Assembly: GCF_000739595.1 (NCBI RefSeq)
Contig: NZ_BBJP01000027.1
Coordinates: forward strand, 1 to 64,000
Direction: 5' to 3'
Source: Halorubrum halophilum
GTDB taxonomy: Archaea; Halobacteriota; Halobacteria; Halobacteriales; Haloferacaceae
Length of the DNA: 64,000 bases
Shown here: positions 2,423 to 14,355 of the stretch, piece after piece
Layout of the letters: every line of letters begins with the position of its first letter
Position numbering within the stretch: position 1 is the first letter of the stretch
The notes under the pieces: generated by a model
Told to the model about the DNA's origin: nothing
The model's database searches: none
What the model saw: the letters and a program-made list of their open reading frames with translations, nothing else
Made by a program: the position numbers and the translations under genes

Positions 2423-2485
2423 ATGACGCGGAGACGAGACGCCGACGCCGCGACGGACCGAGCGACGCGGGGAGCCGAGCCGTGA
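2423..2485 (+). CDS. Possible 20-residue leader peptide coupled to pilB
   Basis: An ATG at 2423 opens a 20-codon arginine-rich frame whose TGA (2483-2485) overlaps the GTG start of pilB (2482). A TATA-like CCCTTAAACC near 2386-2395 lies the right distance upstream for a leaderless transcript beginning at this ATG. The arrangement would couple pilB translation to the small frame. It could equally be a 5' UTR containing a chance frame; codon content is not informative at this length. Confidence 0.3.
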   Translation: MTRRRDADAATDRATRGAEP

Positions 2486-3969
2486 GCGACGGGCCGACCC
2501 TCCGGATCGTCGACGACGCGGACGACGATCCGGGCGGCGCGGTCCCCGCGCCGGTGCCGCCGGACGACCCGGAGGCGTGGTACGCGCCTGCAGTTCGCGC
2601 GCAGTACGAATCGGAGCCGGGGGTCGTCGCGACCGTCCGCGAGCGCGACGGCGGCCGGTTCGGGTACGACGTACGCGAGCCGCCGCTGTCGGCGGTCGAC
2701 GAGCGCGCGCTCGACCGCGTCCGCGACCACTTCTCCGGGGTGCGTCACCGCCGCCCGCTCACGCGGGTCGGGGTGAACGAGCGCGCCGAGGCGGGGTTCG
2801 AGCCGAAGTACGAGCGCGCGCTCGACCGACTGCTCGACGCGAGCCCGGCGGCGCGCCGCCGGATCGGCTATCACGCCCTGCGCGACCTCCGGCTCCTGGG
2901 CGACGTGACGCCGCTCGCCTTAGACGACCGGATCGAGGTGGCCGACGTGGGCGACGAGCGCGATCTGGTCGTCCACACCGAGACGTTCGCGCCCGTAGAG
3001 ACCGGTCTCGACGCCGACGCGGAGTACGTCGAGCGCGTCGCCGCCGAGCGGCTCGCCCGGTACGCGGTCGGCTTCGCCGGGCTCTCGGTCGAGGTGGTGG
3101 TCGCCCGCGAGCGCCTGCTCGGCTCCGACGCGTTCGAGACGAAGTACGCCGTCCGCGAGCCCGACCTCCTCCCGGGCGACGAGGCGCTGATCGAGGAGTG
3201 CAAGGAGCGCATCTGGGAGACGACCGTCAACGGTGTCGTCGACGACCGCGAGGCGTTCGTCGCCGAGCACGCCCGGCGGTTCCTCTCGCGGCGGCTCACC
3301 GCGCGCAACACCCGCGCGTGGCTCGGCGCGGCCGCCCACCGCGCCCGCTCCGCGCTGGCCGACCGCGGGCTCGCGGTCCCGCCGGTCGACTCGCGGTACG
3401 CCCGCGACCGGCTCGACGACTTGGCGTACTACGTGCTCCGCGACTTCGTCGGCGAGGGGATACTCACGATTCCGATCCGCGACCCGAACCTGGAGGACGT
3501 GGAGGCGAACCGCGTCGGCGAGCGCGTGAAGGTGGTTCCGCGGGCTTCGGTCTTGGAGGGGACCGGAGACGGCGGCTCCGAGGACGGGAACTCCGAGCGG
3601 ACCGGCCGGCGCGTCCCGACCAACCTCGCGTTCGACGACGAGACCGCGTTCGTCAACGTCGTCACCGGGCTGGCCGCCCGCGACGGCACCGAGCTCAACG
3701 CCTCGACGCCGTCGGCGAAGGTGAATCTCGACGTCTACGGGATCGACGAGACGATCCGGTGTGCGGTGGCGCTGCCCGTCATCTCGGAGGGCGGCCCGCA
3801 CGTCTCGATCCGCAAGCAGAGCGCTGACGCCCTGACGCCCGTCAACCTGGTCGATCAGGGAACGCTCTCGCCCGATCTGGTCACCCTGCTGTGGCTGCTG
3901 TACGAACACCGAGGGACCGTCCTCTTCGCCGGGCCGACCGGGGTGGGGAAGACGACGCTGCTCAACGCT
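2482..3969 (+). pseudogene. pilB: Archaeal type IV pilus/secretion ATPase, 5' part of split gene
   Basis: First 496 codons of a PilB/GspE-family hexameric ATPase that powers pilin assembly at the cytoplasmic membrane. The frame opens at GTG 2482. Residues ~1-200 form the acidic N-terminal domain; the ATPase core follows (NLEDVEANR..., SIRKQSADALTPVNL). It runs to the Walker A motif GPTGVGKTT (residues 484-492) and LLNA. The native sequence ends at GCT (3967-3969). The open frame then enters the integrated element, adds 19 foreign residues and stops at 4029. Walker B and the rest of the core are at 11543-12373, so neither piece can be an active ATPase as the locus stands. Joining at the TCAACGCT core restores a ~772-residue protein in frame. 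Confidence 0.92.
3962..3969. repeat. Left attachment core TCAACGCT (attL)
   Basis: The 8-bp sequence TCAACGCT at the end of the 5' pilB fragment is repeated at 11535-11542 at the start of the 3' fragment. Both copies encode the same in-frame ...N-A of pilB. Recombination between them would give LLNA-HTPFIPFDD, the expected sequence after a P-loop in this family. This makes it the likely strand-exchange core of the integrase. Confidence 0.8.
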
Positions 3970-3992: not shown

Positions 3993-4012
3993 CAGTACCA
4001 CCGCAAATACCG

Positions 4013-4678
4013 TTACAGGCTCCGTCTGAGCCACTTCGACTTGTGAACCTGAGAAACCCCTACATCGCTTTCTTCTAATTGCTCAACTACACCGTCCATA
4101 TGTCTCCTGCCAGCGACCAAGCATCCCCTATCGAGGTCGTCATTAGTAGATAGGATTTCATCGATATTCTCGGCCATTACCTCGTCCCGTTCTGAGAGAG
4201 TCCAGTAGGCAAACGGAACGACTGGCATAAATCCGACTGCAATCGCAAAGATTAGAACTCCGATTGAGGATGCCATCACTCCCAGTACGAAGATGACTGC
4301 GGTTATCGCAAACCAGAGCCAACTGAACACCGTAACTGCGAGTCCCACCTCACTTGCTCTACGTGGGATATTCAAATCGACTGGCTCAATATCGATTTCC
4401 TTTCTCTGAGCCACCGTCTCCGTGGCGACTCCATCAACAGGCTTGAATTGGCGAGTGAGAAGGAAACCAATTATCCCCCAGAACCAGTCCAAAATAATCC
4501 CGGTGAGATAGAGCGCGGGGTTCCGAAGAAGCATACCGCGTTCATCGGAATCATCGGGTTCCTCACGCGGCCCTTCTACAAAGAGAACATCAGCATCATC
4601 TGCAAATTCATCGAGTTCGTCCGTCACCTTACTGAGACGGTCTACGTGTAGTGTTCCAAAAGCGTCAACTTCTGACAT
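4013..4678 (-). CDS. TraB-like membrane protein (element cargo)
   Basis: A 221-residue frame starting at ATG 4678; a GTG at 4699 is an alternative. It opens with FGTLHVDRLSKVTDEL followed by VLFVEGPREE, which resembles the GTxH...S and vELd..R motifs of the TraB/PrgY (TIKI-type) superfamily. The C-terminal part has VAGRRHMDGVVEQL, like the second TraB motif GxxHxxG. In between are about three membrane segments (LYLTGIILDWFWGIIGFLL and two between VGLAVTVFSW and VPFAYWTL). TraB proteins are membrane-associated and thought to degrade or shut off peptide signals; that role here is inference. The gene is AT-richer than the chromosome, faces leftward at the attL end, and lies just downstream of the integrase. 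Confidence 0.6.
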   Translation of the reverse strand: MSEVDAFGTLHVDRLSKVTDELDEFADDADVLFVEGPREEPDDSDERGMLLRNPALYLTGIILDWFWGIIGFLLTRQFKPVDGVATETVAQRKEIDIEPVDLNIPRRASEVGLAVTVFSWLWFAITAVIFVLGVMASSIGVLIFAIAVGFMPVVPFAYWTLSERDEVMAENIDEILSTNDDLDRGCLVAGRRHMDGVVEQLEESDVGVSQVHKSKWLRRSL

Positions 4679-4744
4679 TAAGTCAGCAATCTCACCCACC
4701 TCATATGATAGTTGTCGGTGAGAAAACGAGGTTGTGGTAATCTC

Positions 4745-5866
4745 TTAGATTCCCAGCCGGTAGATGTTCTCTCGATAGAGGTCTTCGATGTCCTCGTAGT
4801 AGGTGTGGAGATAGGAGTCAATCGGCTCCTCCATCGACCCTTTCTCCACAGAGTCGCCACGCATATACTTCACCAGTTCGCGGTTCACGTCCTGCTCGAC
4901 ACGCCACCACGTCGAAAAGCGGTGTCGCCCGAAGTGGCTCGTTACCGGCTTGTATTCCTCCGTCTCTGCGTACTCCGGGTGGAGTTCCTTCTTCCAGACC
5001 GTGTTGATGGCCTTGTGGTCCATCTTCGAGTGGCTCGTTTCCGACAGGAACAACCACGGCGAACCGTTGTCCGGGCGAACCAACAAGTACCGCACGAGCA
5101 ACCGACGCATCTCACCATCAAGCGGGAGCATCCGCGCACGGCCTGACTTGTTCCTCGGTCGCTCGTCTCCCGGCGGAACGTAGATGACGTTCTCTCGGTC
5201 TGCAAGCCGGTCCTCCGAACTCAGTTCCGGGTAATGCGACTGAATCTCGCTATTTCCCATCGCAATATCGCTCAGTTTGATGTTCGATACCTCACTCGCA
5301 CGGAGACCGAGTTTGAATTGGAGGCAGATTATCGCCCGGCTACGAAGGTGCGTCACGCCTCGCACCATCTCCTGAAGTTCCTCAACGGGGATTCGGCGGT
5401 GCTTCTTCCCGTCGGGCACTTCCAGATTCACCTTGTCGCGGGCGAGCGTGAACGGGTTGTAATCCTGCGGGTGCGGGAAGCCAGCCGAATCCTGCCAGAA
5501 ACGATAGGCACGATTCAGTTTCCGCAGTTTCCCTTTCACCGTTCGCGGGTGGTTGTCCTTCGAGTCGGGCGACAGTTGCCACTCGATGAACCGAACAACG
5601 TGCTGGTCACTCGGACACGCCGGGTGTCGGTCCTCACGCTCCATATGCTCGCGCCACTCGGCGTAGACACTCCGGTAGTTCCGGCGCGTGGTGCTATTGA
5701 GGTCCTTCGAGAGTAACACGTTCTCGATGAACGGCACGAACGGGTCAACGTCTATCTCCTCAAACTTCGACTCGAACTCTGCCAGCGGGTCTGTCGTCTT
5801 CCCGAACGCCTCGGCTATCTTCTCCGTCGAACTGCTCTCACGCTCCGCTATCGGCGCGTCACTCAT
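4745..5866 (-). CDS. int: Tyrosine recombinase (integrase)
   Basis: 373 residues from ATG 5866, chosen over a TTG at 5947 because it lies just inside the stop of the previous gene. An N-terminal SAM-like core-binding domain spans ~40-150 and the catalytic domain ~160-373. Catalytic residues seen: Arg189 in LGLRASEV, the HxxR pair in HFGRHRF (311-314) and the likely nucleophile Tyr352 in SYLHTYY. The usual LGH histidine is replaced by Asp in MRGD. It should catalyse integration and excision at TCAACGCT in pilB. It is the last gene of a leftward operon in which consecutive genes overlap by 4-11 bp. Confidence 0.93.
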   Translation of the reverse strand: MSDAPIAERESSSTEKIAEAFGKTTDPLAEFESKFEEIDVDPFVPFIENVLLSKDLNSTTRRNYRSVYAEWREHMEREDRHPACPSDQHVVRFIEWQLSPDSKDNHPRTVKGKLRKLNRAYRFWQDSAGFPHPQDYNPFTLARDKVNLEVPDGKKHRRIPVEELQEMVRGVTHLRSRAIICLQFKLGLRASEVSNIKLSDIAMGNSEIQSHYPELSSEDRLADRENVIYVPPGDERPRNKSGRARMLPLDGEMRRLLVRYLLVRPDNGSPWLFLSETSHSKMDHKAINTVWKKELHPEYAETEEYKPVTSHFGRHRFSTWWRVEQDVNRELVKYMRGDSVEKGSMEEPIDSYLHTYYEDIEDLYRENIYRLGI

Positions 5867-6359
5867 CGTTCTCCCTCCGGTACTCTCTACGACTATTCCG
5901 AGTCTGCTTCGTCCTCCAATCCCACAGCTCTCCGGCTGCGTCACCAACGGCAGCGGCCATCAATACCGGGTGATAGAGATGTGGATATTCAGTATGCCAC
6001 TGCAACCAGTCGTAGAACTCCCGCACACGAAGCCAGTAATCGTGCGCTCCTCGCATGGATTTCGCCCCCAGAAGTTCCGCAGACCACGCTTCCACATCGT
6101 CGGGCAGGGCAAACGCGTGATGACGTTCACGGTCGGTCATATGGTCCTTCCAGTGGTTACCCACGCGGTCCACATCATCCTCGTACCCTTCGTAACTGCC
6201 TTGCTCATACTGGTGTTCGTCGCAGAACTCCTGCCAAATATCCCTGCCCTCGTAGGCATCAGTGAGATGATGCAGCCGACGACGACTCCGCACTTTGTCC
6301 ATCCGGTTCAATTTCCCCATCCGGTCGTCAGGGTCAGGCGACTTCTTCGGGTAACTCAT
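5859..6359 (-). CDS. Integrase-associated small protein with core-binding-like fold
   Basis: 166 residues, overlapping the integrase start by 8 bp and the upstream gene by 4 bp. The basic N-terminus (KLNRMDKVRSRRRLHHL) precedes an acidic middle and a helical part with YWLRVREFYDWLQWHTEYPHLYHP. That part looks like the SAM-like DNA-binding domain of tyrosine recombinases without the catalytic half. SNJ2-type integrases are known, from recall, to be co-transcribed with two small accessory proteins that affect recombination; this gene's position fits that role. Its function is inferred from position and this partial resemblance. Confidence 0.65.
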   Translation of the reverse strand: MSYPKKSPDPDDRMGKLNRMDKVRSRRRLHHLTDAYEGRDIWQEFCDEHQYEQGSYEGYEDDVDRVGNHWKDHMTDRERHHAFALPDDVEAWSAELLGAKSMRGAHDYWLRVREFYDWLQWHTEYPHLYHPVLMAAAVGDAAGELWDWRTKQTRNSRREYRRENDE

Positions 6360-6820
6360 CGCTGCCCCTCCTGCTGAACGGATTCAATCGGATAGTAGGC
6401 GTCGTTGTGGACTTCTACTGACTCGCCTTCCATCACTTCCAGATGCTCGTTCGCTCGCTCCGGCACGGACTCGCGCAGATGCGTCTTGATGTCCTCGAAG
6501 GAACAGCCCGGATTCCGCTCGACAAACCGGCGAATCTCCGCCGAGTCCGAGCGGTACAGCCGGTCCTCCAACTTGCTGATTCGCTCGCGGGACGAGTCGA
6601 GTTCGCTCTTGAGGTCGTCGCGCTGCTCGCGGAGTTCTTCGTTCGTCTTGTCCGGCTCTACGTCCGGGTCAATCTTCTTCATCCCCGCCTCGACCATACT
6701 GGCGATGAACCCGGACACGCTCATATCGAACTCGTCGGCGTGGTCCTTCCACCGCTCGTACTGCTCTCGCGTCGGATACGCGGCGGCCATCTGCGTGTTC
6801 TCCGCCGTTTCAGTAGGCAT
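6356..6820 (-). CDS. Coiled-coil/winged-helix accessory protein
   Basis: 154 residues. The N-terminal part (YPTREQYERWKDHADEFD, then MSVSGFIASMVEAGMKK) looks like a ribbon-helix-helix segment common in haloarchaeal small proteins. A heptad-rich coiled coil follows (residues ~60-95), then a C-terminal helix-turn-helix-like domain (SAEIRRFVERNPGCSFEDIKTHL). It is sandwiched in the integrase operon with short overlaps on both sides. It could be a directionality factor or an operon regulator; the sequence does not decide which. Confidence 0.6.
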   Translation of the reverse strand: MPTETAENTQMAAAYPTREQYERWKDHADEFDMSVSGFIASMVEAGMKKIDPDVEPDKTNEELREQRDDLKSELDSSRERISKLEDRLYRSDSAEIRRFVERNPGCSFEDIKTHLRESVPERANEHLEVMEGESVEVHNDAYYPIESVQQEGQR

Positions 6821-7313
6821 CGGCCCACAACACCTCCCTGACCACCATACTGATGAGTGACCGTGACACGTCGAACTCGTCTGCGAGGTCGGCCTGCGTC
6901 ACGTCCTCCGACTCGTATCGCTCACAAATCTCTCGCGCTTGCTCGGACGTGAGTTCCGCGTTCGGATTCTCCTCACCCGGCGACGAGAACACGTCGGGGC
7001 CGTGTTCGCCAAAGGCGTGAACCATATTCATCCGCTGATTGCCCAGCATCAGGTGGGCCGGATTCACGCACGACTCGTTGTAGCACTCGTGGAGAACAAG
7101 CGCATCACCGGGGTCCGAACCGTTGGCTAACGCCCACGCTATCCGGTGGGCTTGGTGATAATTCCCGTCGAGCGTGAACCGTCCGTATCCGTCGCCAAAC
7201 GTACCCGCCTCCCACGGCCAGCAGGAAGCCGGGATACGTTCATCGTACTTCGCCTCGAACCGCTCTCGCGCCTCCTCAACGCTCTCAACGTCGATGGGAT
7301 TCCGGTCTATCAT
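6810..7313 (-). CDS. HNH endonuclease-like protein with C-terminal HTH
   Basis: 167 residues. The N-terminal half has the HNH_3-type core: CWPWEAG, YHQAHRIAWAL, VLHECYNESCVNPAHLMLG and NQRMNM, with the metal-binding His/Asn/His pattern and two Cys. The C-terminus (AELTSEQAREICERYESEDVTQADLADEFDVSRSLISMVVR) is a helix-turn-helix of the kind attached to homing endonucleases. It may nick or cut DNA to aid element movement, or serve as a regulator. It overlaps its neighbours by 11 and 4 bp inside the integrase operon. Confidence 0.8.
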   Translation of the reverse strand: MIDRNPIDVESVEEARERFEAKYDERIPASCWPWEAGTFGDGYGRFTLDGNYHQAHRIAWALANGSDPGDALVLHECYNESCVNPAHLMLGNQRMNMVHAFGEHGPDVFSSPGEENPNAELTSEQAREICERYESEDVTQADLADEFDVSRSLISMVVREVLWADAY

Positions 7314-8095
7314 CGCGACTCACCCCCGTCCGTACCGACACGGTGAACCGGACTGCTACCCGCCTCGAACCGCGACTCCGGCAGGTTGGGGTGGCGCTCT
7401 TTCAACAGGCCGATGACTTCCTCCGGCCCACTCACGCCGCTAACTTCGACAGCCTTCTCAACCTTCCCGTGACCGGGGAACACGTTCTCGCCGCGAGAGA
7501 GTATCGAGTCGAGGTCTGCAAGACACTCCTCCAATCGCTCGTTCTCACGGGTCGGACTGTCCTCCGTCGCCTGCTGCTGTCGGGCGTGAATCTGTCGCTC
7601 CACGTTGTCGTCGATGGATTCGCGGAGCATTTCGAGTTCATCGACAACTTGCTGCCGCGAGAACGCTTCGCCATCCTCGAATCGTGCTATCGTCTCCTCA
7701 ATCTCCGACAGCGTTTGCTCGCGCTGCTCCCGCGCTACGTCGTTCTTTTCCTCGGCTTCCACTACCTGCTCGCCGTACGCTTCTGCTCTCAGACCCCGCT
7801 GCATCGAACCTGAGTAATCCTTCTCCGGGTCGTTCTTGACTATCTCTGCTGCCTCTACGGGAACGTAGAGGCTGGTTTTACGCATCTCGCTCGTATCGTC
7901 GTTCGATTTCGTCATGTCGTTCGTGTTGTCGTGATTCGATTCACGAACGACGGTAGGGACCAGAAATCCTTTTGCCAGCGCATCGCGTACGCTAACACGG
8001 ACACGGGTCCCACCGTCGTCCGGCTCGATTCCCACGTCGCGCCACCGTGGAACGGAGACCCCGTCCAAAGTCCTCCGTTCCTGCTGTCGATTCAC
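7310..8095 (-). CDS. Coiled-coil protein of unknown function
   Basis: 261 residues if started at 8095, which leaves 3 bp after the upstream gene and fits the tight operon. An internal ATG at 7915 (201 residues) is the alternative. From there the protein reads MRKTSLYVPVEAAEIVKND, an RHH-like opening, then a long glutamate-rich coiled coil (residues ~120-205 of the long form) and a short folded tail (VEVSGVSGPEEVIGLLKERHPNLP). I do not recognise a family. It may be a DNA-binding scaffold within the recombination operon. Confidence 0.6.
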   Translation of the reverse strand: MNRQQERRTLDGVSVPRWRDVGIEPDDGGTRVRVSVRDALAKGFLVPTVVRESNHDNTNDMTKSNDDTSEMRKTSLYVPVEAAEIVKNDPEKDYSGSMQRGLRAEAYGEQVVEAEEKNDVAREQREQTLSEIEETIARFEDGEAFSRQQVVDELEMLRESIDDNVERQIHARQQQATEDSPTRENERLEECLADLDSILSRGENVFPGHGKVEKAVEVSGVSGPEEVIGLLKERHPNLPESRFEAGSSPVHRVGTDGGESR

Positions 8096-8098
8096 TCG

Positions 8099-8395
8099 TT
8101 AGTCGTGCGTATCACCCTCGAACAGAGCGGTATGCAGCGGAATCCAAAACACACGGCCTTTCGCACCCGTCTTCTTCGACCGAATCTCGCCGTCCTCAAC
8201 CAGCGACATACACTTCTTGTACGTCGCACTCCGCGACCGGTCGAGTACGTCACCGATTTCACGAGCAGTCAACGGCTCGGCCACATCCTTGCGGCTTTTC
8301 AGTACGTCGAGGACATCGGTCTCGTCGTACCGGTCAACGGAGCCGCCACGACCGTCGCTTGGTTCTGATTCATCCGCTGCTTCTCCACCGCTCAT
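8099..8395 (-). CDS. Winged helix-turn-helix regulator, first gene of int operon
   Basis: 98 residues. After an acidic N-terminus comes a clear winged helix: VLDVLKSRKDVAEPLTAREI, GDVLDRSRSATYKKCMSLVEDG and a wing EIRSKKTGAKGRVFWIPL. This pattern is common in haloarchaeal virus and plasmid regulators. It heads the six-gene leftward operon ending in the integrase, so it probably controls that operon. Upstream, GTTAAAG (around 8426-8432) is at a leaderless distance; a second AT element CTTATATAC is only ~10 bp from the ATG. Confidence 0.78.
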   Translation of the reverse strand: MSGGEAADESEPSDGRGGSVDRYDETDVLDVLKSRKDVAEPLTAREIGDVLDRSRSATYKKCMSLVEDGEIRSKKTGAKGRVFWIPLHTALFEGDTHD

Positions 8396-8823
8396 TTACG
8401 TTTGTATATAAGACCCGCAGAAACTTTAACGTTTCGGAGTACTGACACGAGTTAGAGAAACAGACATACTGTAACGCCACGTTTAGGTTTAATCTCTGAT
8501 ACGAGTTCGAGCGCGCCGCTTCCTCACCACAGAAACGTGTCCCCGACAGGAGCAGCGACCGCCGGCAGCAATCACCCACCCCTATGAAGGGATGTATATA
8601 TACATACGAAGGTGTGTGAGTGAGTGTATATACACATACGTCGTGAGGTGACGACGTGATTCGAGCGAATCGATACGTCGAATCAGGACAGAACGCGGCG
8701 ATGACTTCGCGTCCGGTACAGTAAGACGCTCTGATACTACCTGATACAACCCACGTCTGCGGCGACAACGTTCCCCCGTCTGGCGGTTTGATGGCTGGCA
8801 ACTCGTGTTTGTAGGCTACTCCG
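8396..8823. other. Palindrome-rich intergenic region of the element
   Basis: A 428-bp gene-free stretch between two leftward operons. It has two TATA-containing palindromes, ATGTATATATACAT (8592-8605) and GTGTATATACAC (8624-8635). It also has an inverted repeat ACGTCGT/ACGACGT (8638-8644, 8651-8657) and GATTCG/CGAATC (8658-8663, 8666-8671). A near-repeat CTGACACGAGTTAGAG / CTGATACGAGTTCGAG lies at 8442-8457 and 8496-8511, and CTGATAC occurs twice more near 8732-8748. This could be a promoter-operator block or a replication origin. An overlapping frame (8370-8849) has no protein character. Confidence 0.6.
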
Positions 8824-9033
8824 CTACCACCACCAGACGTGTGTCTCACCGACTGGCTTCGACGACGGGCCGGGCGCGTTATCGAGCAGGTCGAACGCGG
8901 TCTCCGGCGAAAGCCCCAGTTCCTCCGCGACTTCCTCGGTGGAGACGACTGGGTTGTACCGCATATTCGTCTCCCGATTGACGATGGTGGCGGCGTCGTC
9001 GGGTGTGACGTTCCGCGATGCTTGCTCAGTCAT
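8824..9033 (-). CDS. Small helix-turn-helix protein
   Basis: 69 residues from ATG 9033, which overlaps the stop of the DUF2213 gene (9026-9028). Residues ~30-58 (PVVSTEEVAEELGLSPETAFDLLDN) form a helix-turn-helix-like segment; the tail ends in THVWWW. It is the last gene of the RHH-DUF2213-HTH operon and is probably DNA-binding. The longer in-frame extension upstream lies inside the DUF2213 gene and is disregarded. Confidence 0.6.
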   Translation of the reverse strand: MTEQASRNVTPDDAATIVNRETNMRYNPVVSTEEVAEELGLSPETAFDLLDNAPGPSSKPVGETHVWWW

Positions 9034-10075
9034 CGCTCCGTTCCTCCCACGCCGACCGTCCGGCAGCCGGTACGTCTCGGTCGGAGTGGCGATTATCGCC
9101 ACTCGTCTCTGCGTTCTGTCGCTGCTCCCACGCGGAACGTCCAGCGGCGGGAGAGTTGCCGTCCTCGTCACTCGCGTTCAGTCGGCGCTTTTGGGTCTTG
9201 CTTCCGCCGGGCGCACCTGCTGGCCCGTAGTTGGGCGTGTCGGACTTCCGCTGTTCGTACGCTGTCCGACCGGGGGCCGGAGCGTTGTTGCTCCTGCTGG
9301 TCTGGTTCGTTCGACTCCGCCCGTCGTCGTCCATCGAAGCGTGGAGTTCCTGTACGTCCTTGGTTAGTGCGGCGAGTTGGTCTCGAAGCCGCTCGATTTC
9401 TGGACTGCTCATATTCGTGGTTTCGGTCGCTGGTGATTGCTCGTCGGTACAATCCGCACACACGCAGTTGACTCGCGGAGCCGCACAGCCGTCTGCTGGC
9501 GAACACCGCGCCATCACCTCCATATTGTCAGGAAAGACGGCGATGTGGTCGGGGAATAGCGGGCCTTGAATCAGGTCGTAGTGGTCGCCCTGAAACGTTC
9601 CGGTAGTGTGTTCGTCGTCCACCGTCGCGTACCCCGCGCTCACGTTCAACTGCTCGCCTGCTCGCAACTCCTCAACTACCTGCTCGGCGGTATCCCCGAT
9701 GCTCTCGGCCTTCTCCACGTCAACTAACGCGGTTCCGCGCAGTTTCTCGCCACCGACAAACTCCGGGTCGAAGAACTCCCCGATGACGATACCCGTGTAC
9801 GCAGTCGGATGTCGGGCTGTCTTGTCCCGGTTCTCCGGGTGGGAGAACGTGATGGGAACGCCATCCCACGCCTCGACGGTCTCCGCGATGCTCTCAGAGG
9901 GGAGGTACTCTTGCGTCCCGTTCTCGGGATAGTCGAGTACCATCTCGCGGAGGGGAACCAGCGGGAACCGCAGGTACTCGCGTCCGTTCCGCTGGACGCT
10001 TCGCACGTTCGCGCTACCGACCGAGTTCTGGAACCAGCCGTTTGTTCGCTCGGTCGCTTCCATCTTCTCAGTCAC
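9026..10075 (-). CDS. DUF2213 (viral prohead protease-like) protein
   Basis: 349 residues from a GTG at 10075 that overlaps the TGA of the RHH gene. Residues ~10-190 match the DUF2213 pattern of phage head-maturation proteases: FPLVPLREMVLDYP, AWDGVPITFSHPENRD, HPTAYTGIVIGEFFDPEF, RGTALVDVEKAE and EQLNVSAGYATVDD. A Cys-rich strip CVCADCTD follows, then a coiled coil and a disordered tail with three copies of [AP]-GR[ST]A[WY]E[QE]R. In tailed viruses this protein processes the head shell. No portal, terminase or capsid gene is present here, so it is an orphan and its role is open. Confidence 0.72.
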   Translation of the reverse strand: MTEKMEATERTNGWFQNSVGSANVRSVQRNGREYLRFPLVPLREMVLDYPENGTQEYLPSESIAETVEAWDGVPITFSHPENRDKTARHPTAYTGIVIGEFFDPEFVGGEKLRGTALVDVEKAESIGDTAEQVVEELRAGEQLNVSAGYATVDDEHTTGTFQGDHYDLIQGPLFPDHIAVFPDNMEVMARCSPADGCAAPRVNCVCADCTDEQSPATETTNMSSPEIERLRDQLAALTKDVQELHASMDDDGRSRTNQTSRSNNAPAPGRTAYEQRKSDTPNYGPAGAPGGSKTQKRRLNASDEDGNSPAAGRSAWEQRQNAETSGDNRHSDRDVPAAGRSAWEERSDD

Positions 10076-10218
10076 GCCTCGGCCACCTCTTGCGCCTCAA
10101 GTTCGGCAACCCGTTCGCGGGTCGCGTCACGAATCAACTCGCTCGCCGTCGCATACCCGCCGTCTTCGCAGACGGCTTCAACTCGGCGGGCGAGCGAGTC
10201 CGGTATCTTTGGTCGCAT
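10072..10218 (-). CDS. Ribbon-helix-helix (CopG-like) repressor, 48 residues
   Basis: A short gene reading MRPKIPDSLARRVEAV, then EDGGYATASELIRDATRERV, the sheet-helix-helix pattern of RHH dimers. Its TGA overlaps the GTG of the DUF2213 gene (GTGA). A perfect inverted repeat GTACAC-TTT-GTGTAC (10221-10235) sits 2 bp before its ATG, and a TATA box lies at 10262-10269. It is therefore very probably the autorepressor of this operon. Confidence 0.8.
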   Translation of the reverse strand: MRPKIPDSLARRVEAVCEDGGYATASELIRDATRERVAELEAQEVAEA

Positions 10219-10220
10219 CC

Positions 10221-10235
10221 GTACACTTTGTGTAC
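10221..10235. promoter_or_regulatory. Operator-like inverted repeat GTACACTTTGTGTAC
   Basis: A perfect 6-bp inverted repeat with a 3-bp spacer, directly before the RHH start codon. With TATA at 10262-10269 on the reverse strand, transcription would start near 10240, so a bound RHH dimer here would block elongation or initiation. Confidence 0.6.
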
Positions 10236-10261
10236 GGGCCGCCAGCCCCAAAACGCTATTG

Positions 10262-10269
10262 TGGTATAA
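10262..10269 (-). promoter_or_regulatory. TATA box of the RHH-DUF2213 operon
   Basis: Reading leftward, TTTATACC is preceded by a purine-rich GGAGG that could serve as BRE. It is ~44 bp from the RHH start, leaving a short leader that contains the operator. Confidence 0.45.
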
Positions 10270-10344
10270 ACCTCCGCTTCGTGGCTTCTAACGCCTGATT
10301 CGAGTTGAATCGAGCGGTGGTTTTGTGACCCTCCAGCGCATACC

Positions 10345-10382
10345 CTCTGGTGGGGCCAAGGCCCCTGCTCGTCGTACCAGAG
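10345..10382. other. Nested hairpin between divergent promoters
   Basis: An outer stem CTCTGGT/ACCAGAG (10345-10351, 10376-10382) encloses an inner stem GGGGCC-AA-GGCCCC (10352-10365). It lies in the ~310-bp spacer between the RHH operon and the HEPN-like gene. It is not a tRNA (38 nt, no T-arm). It might be an RNA fold or a protein site. Confidence 0.4.
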
Positions 10383-10528
10383 TGGCTGGCTCACTTCGGA
10401 GGCTATGGCGAGCGAGTCAGTCGGACATGTTGGTGAACGTGTGCCTCCACGTTCTCCTTCTCCATACTGGCGAATGCCTGAACCGAGGGTAACAATAAGG
10501 CGACGGGTCTGTTTTGCTTACTCAATTG

Positions 10529-11473
10529 ATGGCAGAACACTCTCTCAACCCGGACGAAATAGAGGTGGAGGCAGAGTTCTATTTTATACAGGACGACGGT
10601 AATCCTTCTCTCAGTTCTGCCCAATTACAACTCACGGACGTAATGACCAGACGTGGATACGACATACTACATCAAGGTCAACGAGTCTGGGAATATATGC
10701 TCCAACAGCGTCAGCCCGCTCCGGGATATTGGTGGCGACTAAAGCGGAAACTTGGGCTGGCAAATGAGGCTGATAGAAAGGCTGAACAGAGCATAGAGAA
10801 TCTGAGGGGAACGCGAGATAATTATCCATATCGCATCAAATTCAGATTCATCCCAACCTCGTGGGAAAACGGCGACGAGGGTTACGTCGTGGAGGTCGAA
10901 TGTATTCCCGCAATTCGGGACAAAATCGACCAACTGAGTGGTGATTTTGAGGATGCAGACCCCAAGAGTGCGGTAAGGACAAGCAAGAGTGAACTACGAG
11001 ATATTGCTACAGAAGTCGGATTTAGTATCCTACGGGAACCGTTCACTCGTGCTGAAAACCACGAACCGACGTTGGAACAGCATCTTCGTAAGCAACTTCA
11101 GGAATACAAATATGGCTCGTACGTAACTCAGTTCGCCGATGATGCAGATGAAGCCCTCCGGTATTCCCTCATTCGACCAGCGATTTGCGCGTACGTCCAC
11201 GGCATCGAGTGGGCTATCATCTGCTATCTCGCGGAGATGGAAAACCGCGATTTGATGGAAGAAGAAGGCTATGGGCGAGGAGAAGGCTTCAAAGGTTTAA
11301 TCAGTAAAATCGAGGAGACCGGCCAAGTCAAGCAAACCACTTCTGAAGCGTTGCGACAAATGAATACTGAGCGTGTTTGGATGGCTCATCACAAGGAGGG
11401 GGAAGTGTCTGAGATTGAGGTGCGACGTGTTAAGCAACGCTTCTCTATTCTGCTGGAAGAACTATTCCTCTAA
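10529..11473 (+). CDS. Unknown protein with HEPN-like C-terminus (element cargo)
   Basis: 314 residues from ATG 10529; a TTG five codons upstream is less likely. I do not recognise the N-terminal ~180 residues, which read as a mixed strand/helix domain with a WWRLKRKLG basic patch. The C-terminal ~110 residues are all-helical and end in RVWMAHHKEGEVSEIEV. This gives an R-X4-H pair (Arg282, His287) and the following helix seen in HEPN-fold RNases and DUF4145-like domains. HEPN proteins are commonly RNA-cutting toxins or defence effectors; that function is inferred here. The gene is AT-rich, unlike its neighbours, and is the only rightward gene in the element, ending 61 bp before attR. Confidence 0.55.
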   Translation: MAEHSLNPDEIEVEAEFYFIQDDGNPSLSSAQLQLTDVMTRRGYDILHQGQRVWEYMLQQRQPAPGYWWRLKRKLGLANEADRKAEQSIENLRGTRDNYPYRIKFRFIPTSWENGDEGYVVEVECIPAIRDKIDQLSGDFEDADPKSAVRTSKSELRDIATEVGFSILREPFTRAENHEPTLEQHLRKQLQEYKYGSYVTQFADDADEALRYSLIRPAICAYVHGIEWAIICYLAEMENRDLMEEEGYGRGEGFKGLISKIEETGQVKQTTSEALRQMNTERVWMAHHKEGEVSEIEVRRVKQRFSILLEELFL

Positions 11474-11511
11474 GTCTGACTGGCCTATCTCTGAACATTC
11501 GGTGGCGTTCA

Positions 11512-11522
11512 ATCTACTAGTA
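11512..11522. repeat. Right-end copy of ATCTACTAGTA
   Basis: Same orientation as the copy at 3980-3990 and placed 12 bp inside the attR core, mirroring the 10-bp spacing at the left end. It is a likely integrase-binding site. Confidence 0.55.
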
Positions 11523-11534
11523 TATCCTGACGAT

Positions 11535-11542
11535 TCAACGCT
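11535..11542. repeat. Right attachment core TCAACGCT (attR)
   Basis: Identical to 3962-3969. Read in the pilB frame it gives F-N-A and continues as HTPFIPFDDRP, so the chromosomal gene resumes at 11543 with no lost or gained base. Confidence 0.8.
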
Positions 11543-12373
11543 CACACGCCCTTCATCCCGTTCGACGACCGGCCGGTGTCGATCGACGAGGGGTCCCGCG
11601 AGGTCCGGCTCCCGCACGAGACCGGGGTGTCGCTCACGACGCGCGACCACGAGGACGCGTACAAGGCCGTGAGCATGTCGGAGCTGATGGCGGAAGCGAA
11701 CTACCTCAACCCGGACGTGGAGGTGATCGCCGAGATCAACACGCCCGCGAGCTTCGAGACGTTCGCGGAGACCCTGAACACGGGACACGGCGTGATCGGC
11801 ACCACCCACGCCGAGGACGTGGAGGCGCTCGTCAACCGCGTGATCGAGCGCGGGCTCCCCGCGTACCTCCTCCGCGAGGTCGATCTGGTCGTCTTCCCGC
11901 GGCAGGTCGACGGAGAGCGCTACGTCTCGCGGGCGGTCGAACTCCTCTCCGAGGCGGAGTACGAGGCGCTCGATCCGGAGGCGACGCGCAGCCAGACGGG
12001 GAACCCCAAACACGGCGGCGCCGGCGTCGTCGACAAGGGGGCCGAAGAGGTGTACTACAACACGGTCGCGTGGCGCGACGCCGACGGAGAGTTCCGGTTC
12101 CCGGGTGTTCCCGATTCCGAGGGCGACGCGCCGACCGCGTCCCGTGAGGGGCGCCGTCTCCACGCGCTCGCTCGCGTCGCCGACAACACCGACCGCGATG
12201 TCGACGCCGTCGAGTCCGAGTTCGCGTCCAAGCGTCGGTACGTCGAGTACCTCGTCCGCGAGGGGGTCGACGACTTCGACGCACTGTTCGAGTTCCTCGC
12301 GGACCTCCGGACCGACGAGGCGGCGACCGTCGAGCGCGCCGCTCGCACGATGGGCGGAGAGGGGCGGCCGTGA
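11543..12373 (+). pseudogene. pilB: Archaeal type IV pilus/secretion ATPase, 3' part of split gene
   Basis: About 276 codons that complete the ATPase begun at 2482: HTPFIPFDDRPVSIDEG, SREVRLPHETGVSL (Asp-box region), NPDVEVIAEINTP (Walker B region), TGHGVIGTTHAED (His box) and ARTMGGEG at the end. A GTG at 11576 could start a shorter product of 265 residues, but it would lack the P-loop. The coding sequence is otherwise clean, with no frameshift, which suggests recent insertion or selection through excision. The TGA overlaps the GTG of pilC. Confidence 0.9.
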
Positions 12374-14355
12374 GCGGGAAAACCCGGACAGAAACCGACG
12401 CCGCGGGAGGTCGTCACGCCCTCGACGCGGCCGAGGCCGACGGGTTCGCGCGGGCCGGCGGCTCCTCGGTGGCCGACCGCGTGCTGTACGCCCTGTTCGC
12501 GCGTCACGCGAGCGACCGCCGACACGACGCCGACCGGAAGCGGTACCGCGGGACCACGCTCGACACGGGCTTCGAGACGTACCTGTCGCGGGTGTACGGG
12601 CTCTCGTGGATCCTCTGCGTCGCAGTCATCATCCCGGCGCTACTCGTCGCCGCGTCGACCGTGCCGGGCCTGCTCGCGGCGGTCGACGCCCGGCTCGGCG
12701 CGCGCTCGCCCGTCCCGATCGCGTCGCTGTCGCCCGAGCGCGTCGCCGTCGTCGTCGCCGGGCTTGCCGGATTCCTCGCGAAGCGCGCGACGGTGCGGCT
12801 CGGCGGGCTCCACCTCCGGTGGCTCACGGCGACGCGCCGGACCGACATCGAGCGGACGCTCCCGCCCGCGGTCCGCTACCTCGAACTGCTCGCGGCCGGG
12901 AGCGACGGCCCCCGAGAGATGGTCGAGAAGGCCGCCGCGAACGACGCGTACGGCGGGACCGCGGCGTCGCTGCGGAAGGCGCTCAACGCCGCGCGGCTCG
13001 CCGGGAGCCTCGACGAGGGGTTACGCCGGGTCGCCCGCGACACGCCCTCGCGGGAGCTGCTCGCGCCGTTCCTCCTGAAGTTCCGCAAGTACGCGGCGAC
13101 CGGCGACGCGGCGCTCGCGGAGTACCTCCGGACGGAGCGCCGGATGCTCGCGCACCGGCAGGACCGGGCCCGGAAGCGCGCCCGAAGATTCTTAGAGCTG
13201 CTCACGGAGCTGTTCGTCGTCGTGTTGGTGTTGCCGGCGCTGCTCGTCATCGCGGCGACCGCGCTCACGGTCGTCGTCCCGGAGCTGCTCCCGCCGGTCG
13301 ACACCCCGGTCGGCGTGGTGCCGACGCGGGCGGTCGTCCTCTACGGCGCCGTCGCCTTCCTCGTCGCCATCGGCCTCGTCGGCGCGGTCGCGGTCGGCAC
13401 GCTCCGCCCGCCCAACCAGCGCGCGAGCTACGACCTGCCGGCGACGCCCCGGGAAATCCTCGCCTCGGTCGGGCGCAATCCCGCCAGCGCCGCGGTCGTC
13501 TGCGCGCCGCCCGCGGCCCTACTCGCGGTCGGGCTCGCGTTCGAGGGATACACCCTCGTCAACGTCGGGCTGCTCTCGTACGCCGCCTTCGCGCTCCCCG
13601 TCGGCGCCGTCGCGGGGAGGCGCACCCGGATCGACGACGCGAAGGACCGCGAACTGGCGGACTTCGTTCACGCCGTCTCCGGCCACGTCGCGCAGGGGCG
13701 GCCCTTCCCCGCGGCGGTCGAGGCGGTCGCGCGCGACGCGGACCTCGGCGTGCTTGACGACGACGTGGCCGACCTCGCGTTCGCGCTCCGGTCGACGACC
13801 GCGACGGGGGGAACCGGAGGCGTCGGGGGCGCGGGAGGCGCCGAAGCGCCGGGGGCCTCGACCGACGTCCGCGCGGCCGCGATCGACCGGTTCGTCGACC
13901 GCGTCGGGACCCCGCTGGCCGAGGGAACGCTCGGGCTCGTCACCGACGCCCTCAACGCCGGGAGCGACGCGGACGCCGTCTTCGAGACGCTCCGGATCGA
14001 GGTCGGGCGGCTCTACAGCGAGCAGCGCGCGCTCCGCTCCTCGATGCACCCGTACGTCGCGGTCGGGTGGGCGGCGGCCGCGCTGGTCGCGGCGGTCGTC
14101 GCCGTCGTCAACACGCAGGTGATCGACGCCGCGCGGCTCGCCGACCTCGCGGGCGCCACCGACCTCGTGACCGAGCCGGAGACGGTGCTCCCCGATCTGG
14201 AGCGCTTCCGGCTGTACGTCGTCACGCAGGCGACGATGCTCGCGTCGGGCTGGTTCGCCGGCACCGCCTCCCGCGGTCGCTACGCGGCGCTGTTCCACTC
14301 CGGCCTGCTCGTGGCGATCTGCTACGCGGTGTTCACCACGGGCGGGCTGGTGTGA
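12370..14355 (+). CDS. pilC: Type IV pilus membrane platform protein (PilC/TadC-like)
   Basis: 661 residues with two T2SSF-type halves. Each has an amphipathic cytoplasmic helical bundle (RTLPPAVRYLELLAAGSDGP; KDRELADFVHAVSGHVAQG) followed by membrane helices (VVVLVLPALLVIAATALTVV; the C-terminal pair near HPYVAVGWAAAALVAAVVAVV). This is the archaeal PilC/FlaJ-like partner that holds the assembly ATPase at the membrane. The GTG start overlaps the pilB stop, so it is translationally coupled to a gene now broken. It is intact, but useless without a working partner ATPase unless another pilB paralogue substitutes. No pilin genes are visible nearby. Confidence 0.9.
   Translation: MSGKTRTETDAAGGRHALDAAEADGFARAGGSSVADRVLYALFARHASDRRHDADRKRYRGTTLDTGFETYLSRVYGLSWILCVAVIIPALLVAASTVPGLLAAVDARLGARSPVPIASLSPERVAVVVAGLAGFLAKRATVRLGGLHLRWLTATRRTDIERTLPPAVRYLELLAAGSDGPREMVEKAAANDAYGGTAASLRKALNAARLAGSLDEGLRRVARDTPSRELLAPFLLKFRKYAATGDAALAEYLRTERRMLAHRQDRARKRARRFLELLTELFVVVLVLPALLVIAATALTVVVPELLPPVDTPVGVVPTRAVVLYGAVAFLVAIGLVGAVAVGTLRPPNQRASYDLPATPREILASVGRNPASAAVVCAPPAALLAVGLAFEGYTLVNVGLLSYAAFALPVGAVAGRRTRIDDAKDRELADFVHAVSGHVAQGRPFPAAVEAVARDADLGVLDDDVADLAFALRSTTATGGTGGVGGAGGAEAPGASTDVRAAAIDRFVDRVGTPLAEGTLGLVTDALNAGSDADAVFETLRIEVGRLYSEQRALRSSMHPYVAVGWAAAALVAAVVAVVNTQVIDAARLADLAGATDLVTEPETVLPDLERFRLYVVTQATMLASGWFAGTASRGRYAALFHSGLLVAICYAVFTTGGLV

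Follow-up and report, generated by a model that had tools for sequence, protein, structure and literature searches.

A tyrosine integrase encoded beside a predicted free-standing core-binding-domain protein on a haloarchaeal element in a presumed pilus-type ATPase gene

The window analysed here, a stretch of 64,000 nucleotides of Halorubrum halophilum (assembly GCF_000739595.1, contig NZ_BBJP01000027.1, positions 1 to 64,000), carries a 7.57-kb mobile element whose tyrosine integrase is the last gene of an operon and is preceded by the genes of two small proteins, Orf3 and Orf2. Six minus-strand genes span positions 8395 to 4745, their junctions being a 3-nt gap followed by overlaps of 4, 11, 4 and 8 nt, and this listing of open reading frames (ORFs), with one gap and four overlaps, bears out the six-gene overlapping operon described in an earlier sequence-only reading of the same DNA. 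A TATA-like stretch (TTATATA) lies directly 5' of the first gene, and the likely ATG of the integrase is at 5866 (373 amino acids), the listed frame of 400 amino acids beginning at a TTG farther upstream. From first to last, the operon comprises:

8099..8395, minus strand: winged-helix protein of 98 amino acids, probably the operon regulator (library matches and neighbour comparison)
7310..8095, minus strand: coiled-coil-like protein of 261 amino acids, GTG start, no family match, present in the window and, diverged, in a sister element only
6810..7313, minus strand: predicted HNH endonuclease (HNH_3) of 167 amino acids with a C-terminal helix-turn-helix (HTH), an apparent passenger (Pfam, PHROG)
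6356..6820, minus strand: Orf3, 154 amino acids, predicted ribbon-helix-helix, coiled coil and winged helix (AlphaFold, Foldseek)
5859..6359, minus strand: Orf2, 166 amino acids, putative free-standing core-binding (SAM-like) domain, no catalytic domain (hhalign, hidden Markov models, AlphaFold)
4745..5866, minus strand: tyrosine integrase, 373 amino acids, with R189, K240, H311, R314 and Y352 (Pfam, alignment)

Relatives were sought in 391 haloarchaeal genomes, in which 62 places other than the window's own reached E <= 4.2e-65 among the matches listed; 60 of these loci were fetched, one piece of the integrase in genome G009 (where it lies in two pieces) and the copy in G092 (partial, with a stop) being left out. 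Alignments that include the window retained 50 of 60 integrases, 48 of 53 Orf2 and 33 of 35 Orf3 sequences after near-duplicates and incomplete members were dropped. The integrase matches PF00589 (Phage_integrase, E 1.3e-13), and R189, K240, H311, R314 and Y352, which by their motifs we take to be the catalytic R, K, H, R and Y, are invariant in 50 of 50 aligned members. The top NCBIfam match is XerA with 55.6 bits, far under the cutoff of 220 bits, and because the core-binding match begins at about residue 26 (hhalign) there is no room for the usual arm-binding domain. Judged by these matches, the protein is Xer/XerA-related, consisting of predicted core-binding and catalytic domains with no evident arm-binding domain. 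A recombinase survey, in the passages drawn on here, reports a Xer-like group, 'Arch1', in Halobacteria (PMC8138268). XerA and 'Arch1' proteins likewise have core-binding and catalytic domains only; unlike them, the window integrase falls far under the XerA cutoff, is carried by a mobile element and is accompanied by Orf2 and Orf3. It may descend from the XerA/Arch1 side. The integrase search found something in 387 of the 391 genomes, and in most of these the weaker matches would be XerA/Arch1 proteins.

The Orf2 profile aligns to residues 24–140 of the integrase profile, that is, to the core-binding domain (hhalign probability 98.7%, E 2.3e-16). The relationship was recovered in both directions, as the Orf2 hidden Markov model (HMM) matches the integrase frame in 57 of the 60 loci (E 2e-5 to 9e-17) and, of the 56 loci with an Orf2 frame, 54 show a match to it by the integrase HMM (E 1e-3 to 7e-14). 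The AlphaFold model of Orf2 has a mean predicted local distance difference test score (pLDDT) of 91.3 and a predicted template modelling score (pTM) of 0.85; Foldseek put Cre at the top of its list, while lambda Int and integrase N-domains came lower, none at E <= 0.001. In VIA structural alignment, 34 of the 35 best rows (Z 9.4–6.6) are titled tyrosine recombinase, integrase or N-domain, the Haloarcula marismortui integrase N-domain among them; the remaining row is SroF of Phi3T, whose title gives no kind, and the row after these 35 is unrelated at Z 4.4. Helical bundles may reach such Z values by chance, so that the sequence evidence is the main support for the fold. Pfam SAM-like models match 8 and 5 of the 48 Orf2 members, weakly (best E 3e-4). 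Orf2 is thus predicted to be a free-standing core-binding domain that is paralogous to the integrase N-domain and lacks the catalytic domain. For Orf3 the model is less confident (pLDDT 81.5, pTM 0.48), showing a ribbon-helix-helix, a long helix and a winged helix with a linker of low confidence; Foldseek returned CopG/Arc and MotA/MarR types, none at E <= 0.001, and no Pfam family was above cutoff. The protein probably binds DNA as a dimer, a coiled coil linking its two DNA-binding folds.

Searches by tblastn (E < 1e-5) across the 60 loci detected the integrase in 60, Orf2 in 57, Orf3 in 37, and the HNH gene, the 261-amino-acid gene and a gene for a DUF2213 protein in one each, and by HMM a separate Orf2 frame is present in 56 and Orf3 in 37. 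Four loci have no Orf2 frame: in L071, L073 and L081 the beginning of the integrase match is missing, and L080 holds a C-terminal Orf2 remnant; the frame is short in L052. A reverse search, which scored at most nine candidates per genome so that its count is a lower bound, found at least 59 Orf2 copies in 52 of the 391 genomes, and 59 of 59 lie on the same strand and 5' of a family integrase, with distances between match ends from -1 to 384 nt (median 30). Counted from the other side, there are 67 integrase places, namely the 62 listed (including one G009 piece and G092), the window's own and those in G312, G072, G228 and G306, with the short C-terminal fragments in G328, G297 and G193 and the second G009 piece excluded; Orf2 was not found at eight of them, six of which are clear fragments. 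The forward and reverse searches therefore indicate that the pairing of Orf2 with the integrase is near constant both ways. Pairwise distances are correlated with those of the integrase for Orf2 (rho 0.65, 47 loci) and for Orf3 (rho 0.68, 32 loci), and 0 of 500 permutations were as high. On the integrase tree, which has 59 rows counting the window, Orf3 occurs in 38 rows and requires nine changes, below the number in every one of 500 shuffles (mean 17.4), indicating that Orf3 is usually inherited and has been lost, gained or replaced repeatedly. The winged-helix gene found no support as a fixed fourth member, as a clear winged helix stands upstream of Orf3 in only a few other loci and the slot is otherwise filled by unrelated small genes. 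A scan of a whole collection with one peptide pattern yielded 33 confirmed loci, all haloarchaeal by title, a phylum search with Orf2 gave 15 of 392 genomes, all within the order of the window, and a scan of viral contigs confirmed no copy of the module. The last three genes of the operon form a module of their own, seen in Halobacteria only.

The element interrupts a host gene, which from sequence and position we take to encode a pilus-type secretion ATPase, in its Walker A codons (GVGKTTLLNA), and the following gene is presumably PilC/TadC-like. The ends and the target are arranged as follows:

2482..3969, plus strand: N-terminal part of the interrupted host ATPase gene, up to Walker A
3962..3969, no strand assigned: left core (attL) TCAACGCT, inside the Walker A Leu-Asn-Ala codons, a site uninterrupted in L177 and L178
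3974..3992, no strand assigned: left inner end repeat GTCAGCATCTACTAGTAGA, including the 12-bp palindrome TCTACTAGTAGA; one of an inverted-repeat pair, same in the sister element L031
11513..11531, no strand assigned: right inner end repeat TCTACTAGTATATCCTGAC, in opposite orientation to its left counterpart and completing the pair
11535..11542, no strand assigned: right core (attR) TCAACGCT
11543..12373, plus strand: C-terminal part of the interrupted ATPase gene
12370–14355: presumed PilC/TadC-like gene, next after the ATPase C-part

The two 8-bp core copies lie 7,573 bp apart, and the G+C content is 51–63% in the 1-kb bins of 4001–12000 vs 62–77% in the remaining bins of the window. Directly inside both ends are the inverted repeats of 19 nt, which are 89% complementary; they are kept in the sister element, in whose genome (G041) the submotif GTCANNATCTACTA is confined to the two element ends. 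The N part of the ATPase was matched (E <= 1e-60) in 17 of 25 genomes searched, its own included, and in 13 of the 16 other matching genomes the open frame has 755–1077 amino acids vs 545 in the window. In the close relatives L177 and L178 the gene runs uninterrupted across the insertion site. The protein-coding target named in the sequence-only reading proved correct. L177 and L178 carry AACGCC where both core copies of the window have AACGCT, hence the last T of the core may be element-derived. The sister occupies the same ATPase codons with identical ends, and within each of the two elements one core base, C or G by host, matches between both core copies; the overlap is therefore put at about 7–8 bp.

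Remains of the ATPase or PilC gene also adjoin the integrase in L031, L033, L043, L050, L052 and L058. Read by eye, L031 and L052 have the site at Walker A and L033 and L043 at a second motif (NTGHG), L050 has one end at each of the two motifs, and L058 has the site in PilC; these loci occupy at least three separate places in the integrase tree. The pilus ATPase gene thus looks like a recurrent target of the integrase family. Among ten flanking ORFs chosen at other loci, Pfam gave a match for eight (for one of these below cutoff), comprising three histidine kinases, a HIT protein, a BcsQ/MinD-like ATPase, a GARS-like protein, MutS and an AAA protein. No convincing long attachment (att) repeats were found among the 60 loci save in L090, in which 20-bp direct repeats 2,309 bp apart bracket just Orf3, Orf2 and the integrase, as if the cassette by itself might be a unit; in-silico removal of the stretch between these repeats restored no long reading frame.

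The sister element lies in a genome of another family, and its identity to the window element is uneven. The proteins are 94% (integrase), 98% (Orf3), 96% (HNH) and 97% (DUF2213 protein) identical, vs 61% for Orf2, and DNA identity falls to 66–73% over orf2 between stretches of 82–99% (window 5911–6310, L031 7164–7563). The integrase and Orf3 of the two elements are mutually closest by far; the Orf2 proteins are also mutually closest at only 61%, with the next relatives at 50–56%. Such low identity between highly similar flanks indicates that orf2 was exchanged or diverged alone. The remaining cargo at both ends differs between the two elements. The other genes of the window element are:

4013..4699, minus strand: probable membrane protein of 228 amino acids, cargo; the sister has a different gene here
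9026..10075, minus strand: DUF2213/head-maturation-protease-like protein, common to the sister element
10072..10251, minus strand: ribbon-helix-helix protein of 59 amino acids
10514..11473, plus strand: cargo protein of 319 amino acids, no known family, not found in the sister

The two end cargo genes (10514–11473 and 4013–4699) belong to no known family, are not found in the sister and have no match in the defence library, and the DUF2213/head-maturation-protease-like gene carries C-terminal repeats of the 'AGRSAWEQR' type. Between that gene and the operon, positions 8400–9025 form about 600 bp without a clear gene and with alternating TATATA/GTATATA tracts, a gap whose counterpart is about 1.2 kb longer in the sister. 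A tailed-virus provirus was rejected as a description of the element, because capsid, portal and terminase were not matched and the ten element proteins gave a single DUF2213/protease-like match. A viral origin was likewise rejected, as pattern-based scans of viral contigs confirmed no relative either for the integrase profile or for the DUF2213 protein and no phage record matched the integrase. Orf3 showed weak Helicobacter-phage matches only among phage records, and two plasmids encode matches to the integrase, one 24% and the other 38% identical.

Two readings of the operon's composition differ from an integrase-Orf2-Orf3 module of its own. That the six genes make up one functional unit, with the HNH and 261-amino-acid proteins joining in recombination, appears improbable. 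Both genes overlap their neighbours by 4–11 nt, and the HNH protein is highly conserved in a sister that sits in a genome of another family; yet each gene occurs in one of the 60 other loci, both times the sister, where the 261-amino-acid protein is just 32% identical (candidates for it in L032 and L039 were rejected as not convincing homologues). Relatives of the HNH protein (E <= 1e-10) exist in 7 of the 391 genomes, window included, and stand in this operon in the window and the sister only; in the five other genomes they are not beside this integrase, lying on other contigs or in genomes with no family integrase. With its HNH_3 match (E 8.7e-9), weaker HTH-type matches and PHROG assignment to HNH endonucleases, the protein is predicted to be a homing-type endonuclease with an HTH, and HNH-HTH proteins are typically free-standing homing endonucleases. 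Given this distribution, both genes are taken to be lineage passengers outside the module, and the part of the sequence-only reading that counted them as additions to it was refuted by the test which that reading had set. Far less probable still is the earlier view that the last three genes are the int-orf2-orf3 module reported for the pleolipovirus SNJ2 with two additions. The general layout is shared, since the SNJ2 module (IntSNJ2, Orf2 and Orf3), assigned to 'Arch2' in the survey passages cited above (PMC8138268), also joins a haloarchaeal tyrosine integrase to two small upstream genes in one operon. The proteins, however, differ: SNJ2 gp2 is a coiled coil of 111 amino acids and gp3 a winged helix of 141, unlike Orf2 and Orf3 of the window, and none of the three SNJ2 proteins matches the window families (hhalign 1.0% for Int, 0.15% for gp2, 0.07% for gp3, and 0.95% in a cross test of Orf3 with gp2, values obtained with single SNJ2 sequences, by which a remote link could be missed). 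In 32 SNJ2-type loci the Orf2 HMM had no match at E <= 1, and the best values were E 0.045 for Orf3 and 1e-3 for the integrase; conversely, phmmer found no match of gp2 in the 60 loci and two of gp3, far from the integrase. No phage record matched the integrase at E <= 1e-3, SNJ2 and HHPV4 being among those searched, and BLASTP gave no meaningful match to HHPV4 Int, which is 71.6% identical to SNJ2 Int. The targets differ as well, as SNJ2 integrates at tRNA-Met (PMC5867852), unlike the ATPase gene used here; no tRNA gene occurs in the window, and four of the 60 loci hold any, in each case more than 3.3 kb away from the stop of the integrase. The window integrase and IntSNJ2 have a superfamily in common and belong to different families, and SNJ2 membership was rejected at the family level against the SNJ2 record and the 32 loci. 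The sequence-only reading was right in seeing an integrase with two small operon partners, and the 166- and 154-amino-acid proteins do match an integrase-linked family, which is a different one from the SNJ2 set it had named. Second integrases of SNJ2 type lie away from the family integrase in L067 and L085, and gp3-like genes occur in L073 and L085, so two integrase types can share a neighbourhood.

The analysis establishes the homology and the fold, the near-constant pairing, the order of the genes, the ends of the element and its target; DNA binding, protein contacts and reaction control are what we infer. The last three genes would be a self-contained integration module in which both proteins supply accessory DNA binding in trans, an account to which we give a slightly better than even chance. 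Orf2 would derive from the integrase core-binding domain and now act as a separate protein encoded directly before the integrase; together with Orf3 it would occupy the att DNA surrounding the core, the inverted end repeats on either side of the overlap among it, and would touch the integrase via surfaces of the core-binding domain. Lambda-type integrases have the arm-binding domain within Int, plus Xis, and their reaction is governed by accessory DNA contacts around a short core, as is proposed for the window module; the difference is that lambda has arm binding inside Int, whereas here it would come in trans, Orf2 and Orf3 stabilising the synapse and setting direction in place of that domain. 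In the same survey passages, mobile recombinases are said to have evolved through gain of the arm-binding domain (PMC8138268). A bolder version, which we consider possible though short of an even chance, makes this a two-part integrase, the family having duplicated its core-binding domain and split it off as Orf2, a standing subunit of a heteromeric intasome that with Orf3 replaces the arm-binding domain in trans. The nearest precedent found for a duplicated core-binding domain is RitA of the RIT elements (recombinases in trio), with two sequential core-binding domains (PMC8138268, same passages); there a single polypeptide carries both domains and three recombinases take part, whereas in the window the second domain is a separate protein. 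Membership in the RIT elements was rejected, since a catalytic-domain match is found in one operon protein only and not in three recombinases in a row. The SroF protein of Phi3T (PDB 9rd5), a DNA-bound phage protein, is a structural match of Orf2 at Z 7.9, and has 317 residues vs 166.

Several observations weigh against Orf2 and Orf3 as helpers in trans. Simple recombinases without an arm-binding domain serve several mobile-element groups (PMC8138268, passages as above) and other archaeal integrases function without accessory proteins, as stated in the parts consulted of an archaeal recombinase review (PMC8371274), so that a missing arm-binding domain alone calls for no helpers. Two integrases without Orf2 are nearly full length, in G006 (residues 24–372) and in G166 (residues 14–366, with only a C-terminal Orf2 remnant), so that either the integrase can do without Orf2 or these two copies are no longer active; Orf3 is undetected in 23 of the 60 loci and is thus not always needed. 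A family-wide palindrome beside att was rejected, the exact TCTACTAGTAGA occurring in the sister alone of the 60 other loci, and the remnant end of L050 has arms resembling the palindrome, in a locus in which Orf3 is undetected. Finally, Orf2 is very different in window and sister while the att ends are unchanged, which speaks against tight co-adaptation of Orf2 and its site. Orf2 could instead be a competitive brake: by sitting on core sites or poisoning the tetramer of the integrase, it would hold the element in its integrated state for as long as it is neither removed nor outnumbered. Its retained DNA-binding fold without a catalytic domain would fit, and its position directly before the integrase in the same operon suits dose control; a brake should, however, be lost frequently, yet Orf2 is kept at 59 of the 67 integrase places, with fragments making up most of the rest, and we regard this explanation as unlikely. 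The least probable of all the explanations considered is that Orf2 is a decaying duplicate without function, as its nature as a partial copy of the integrase N-domain, its shortness in L052 and the mere remnant in L080 might suggest. Against decay, 56 of 60 loci retain the separate frame, even where identity is as low as 23%, and the Orf2 alignment has two invariant and eleven nearly invariant columns.

No account of a separate core-binding-domain partner or of this module was found in the literature search, for which subscription papers were outside the scope. An integrase paired with a separate protein from its own DNA-binding domain would thus be a pairing for which no description was found, and a variant of the tyrosine-recombinase integration modules. 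Recombination at sites in protein-coding genes remained untested according to the consulted parts of the archaeal recombinase review (PMC8371274), a remark on which the present integrase family bears, since several of its lineages sit in the same pilus-type ATPase gene or its partner gene. If the two-part integrase were true, a Xer-like enzyme could run a mobile element that targets protein-coding genes, for example at the P-loop of a pilus ATPase. Tyrosine recombinases are textbook enzymes, and a detached core-binding domain as their near-constant companion would show a different route to recombinase control, for the testing of which the module would offer a simple two- or three-protein system.

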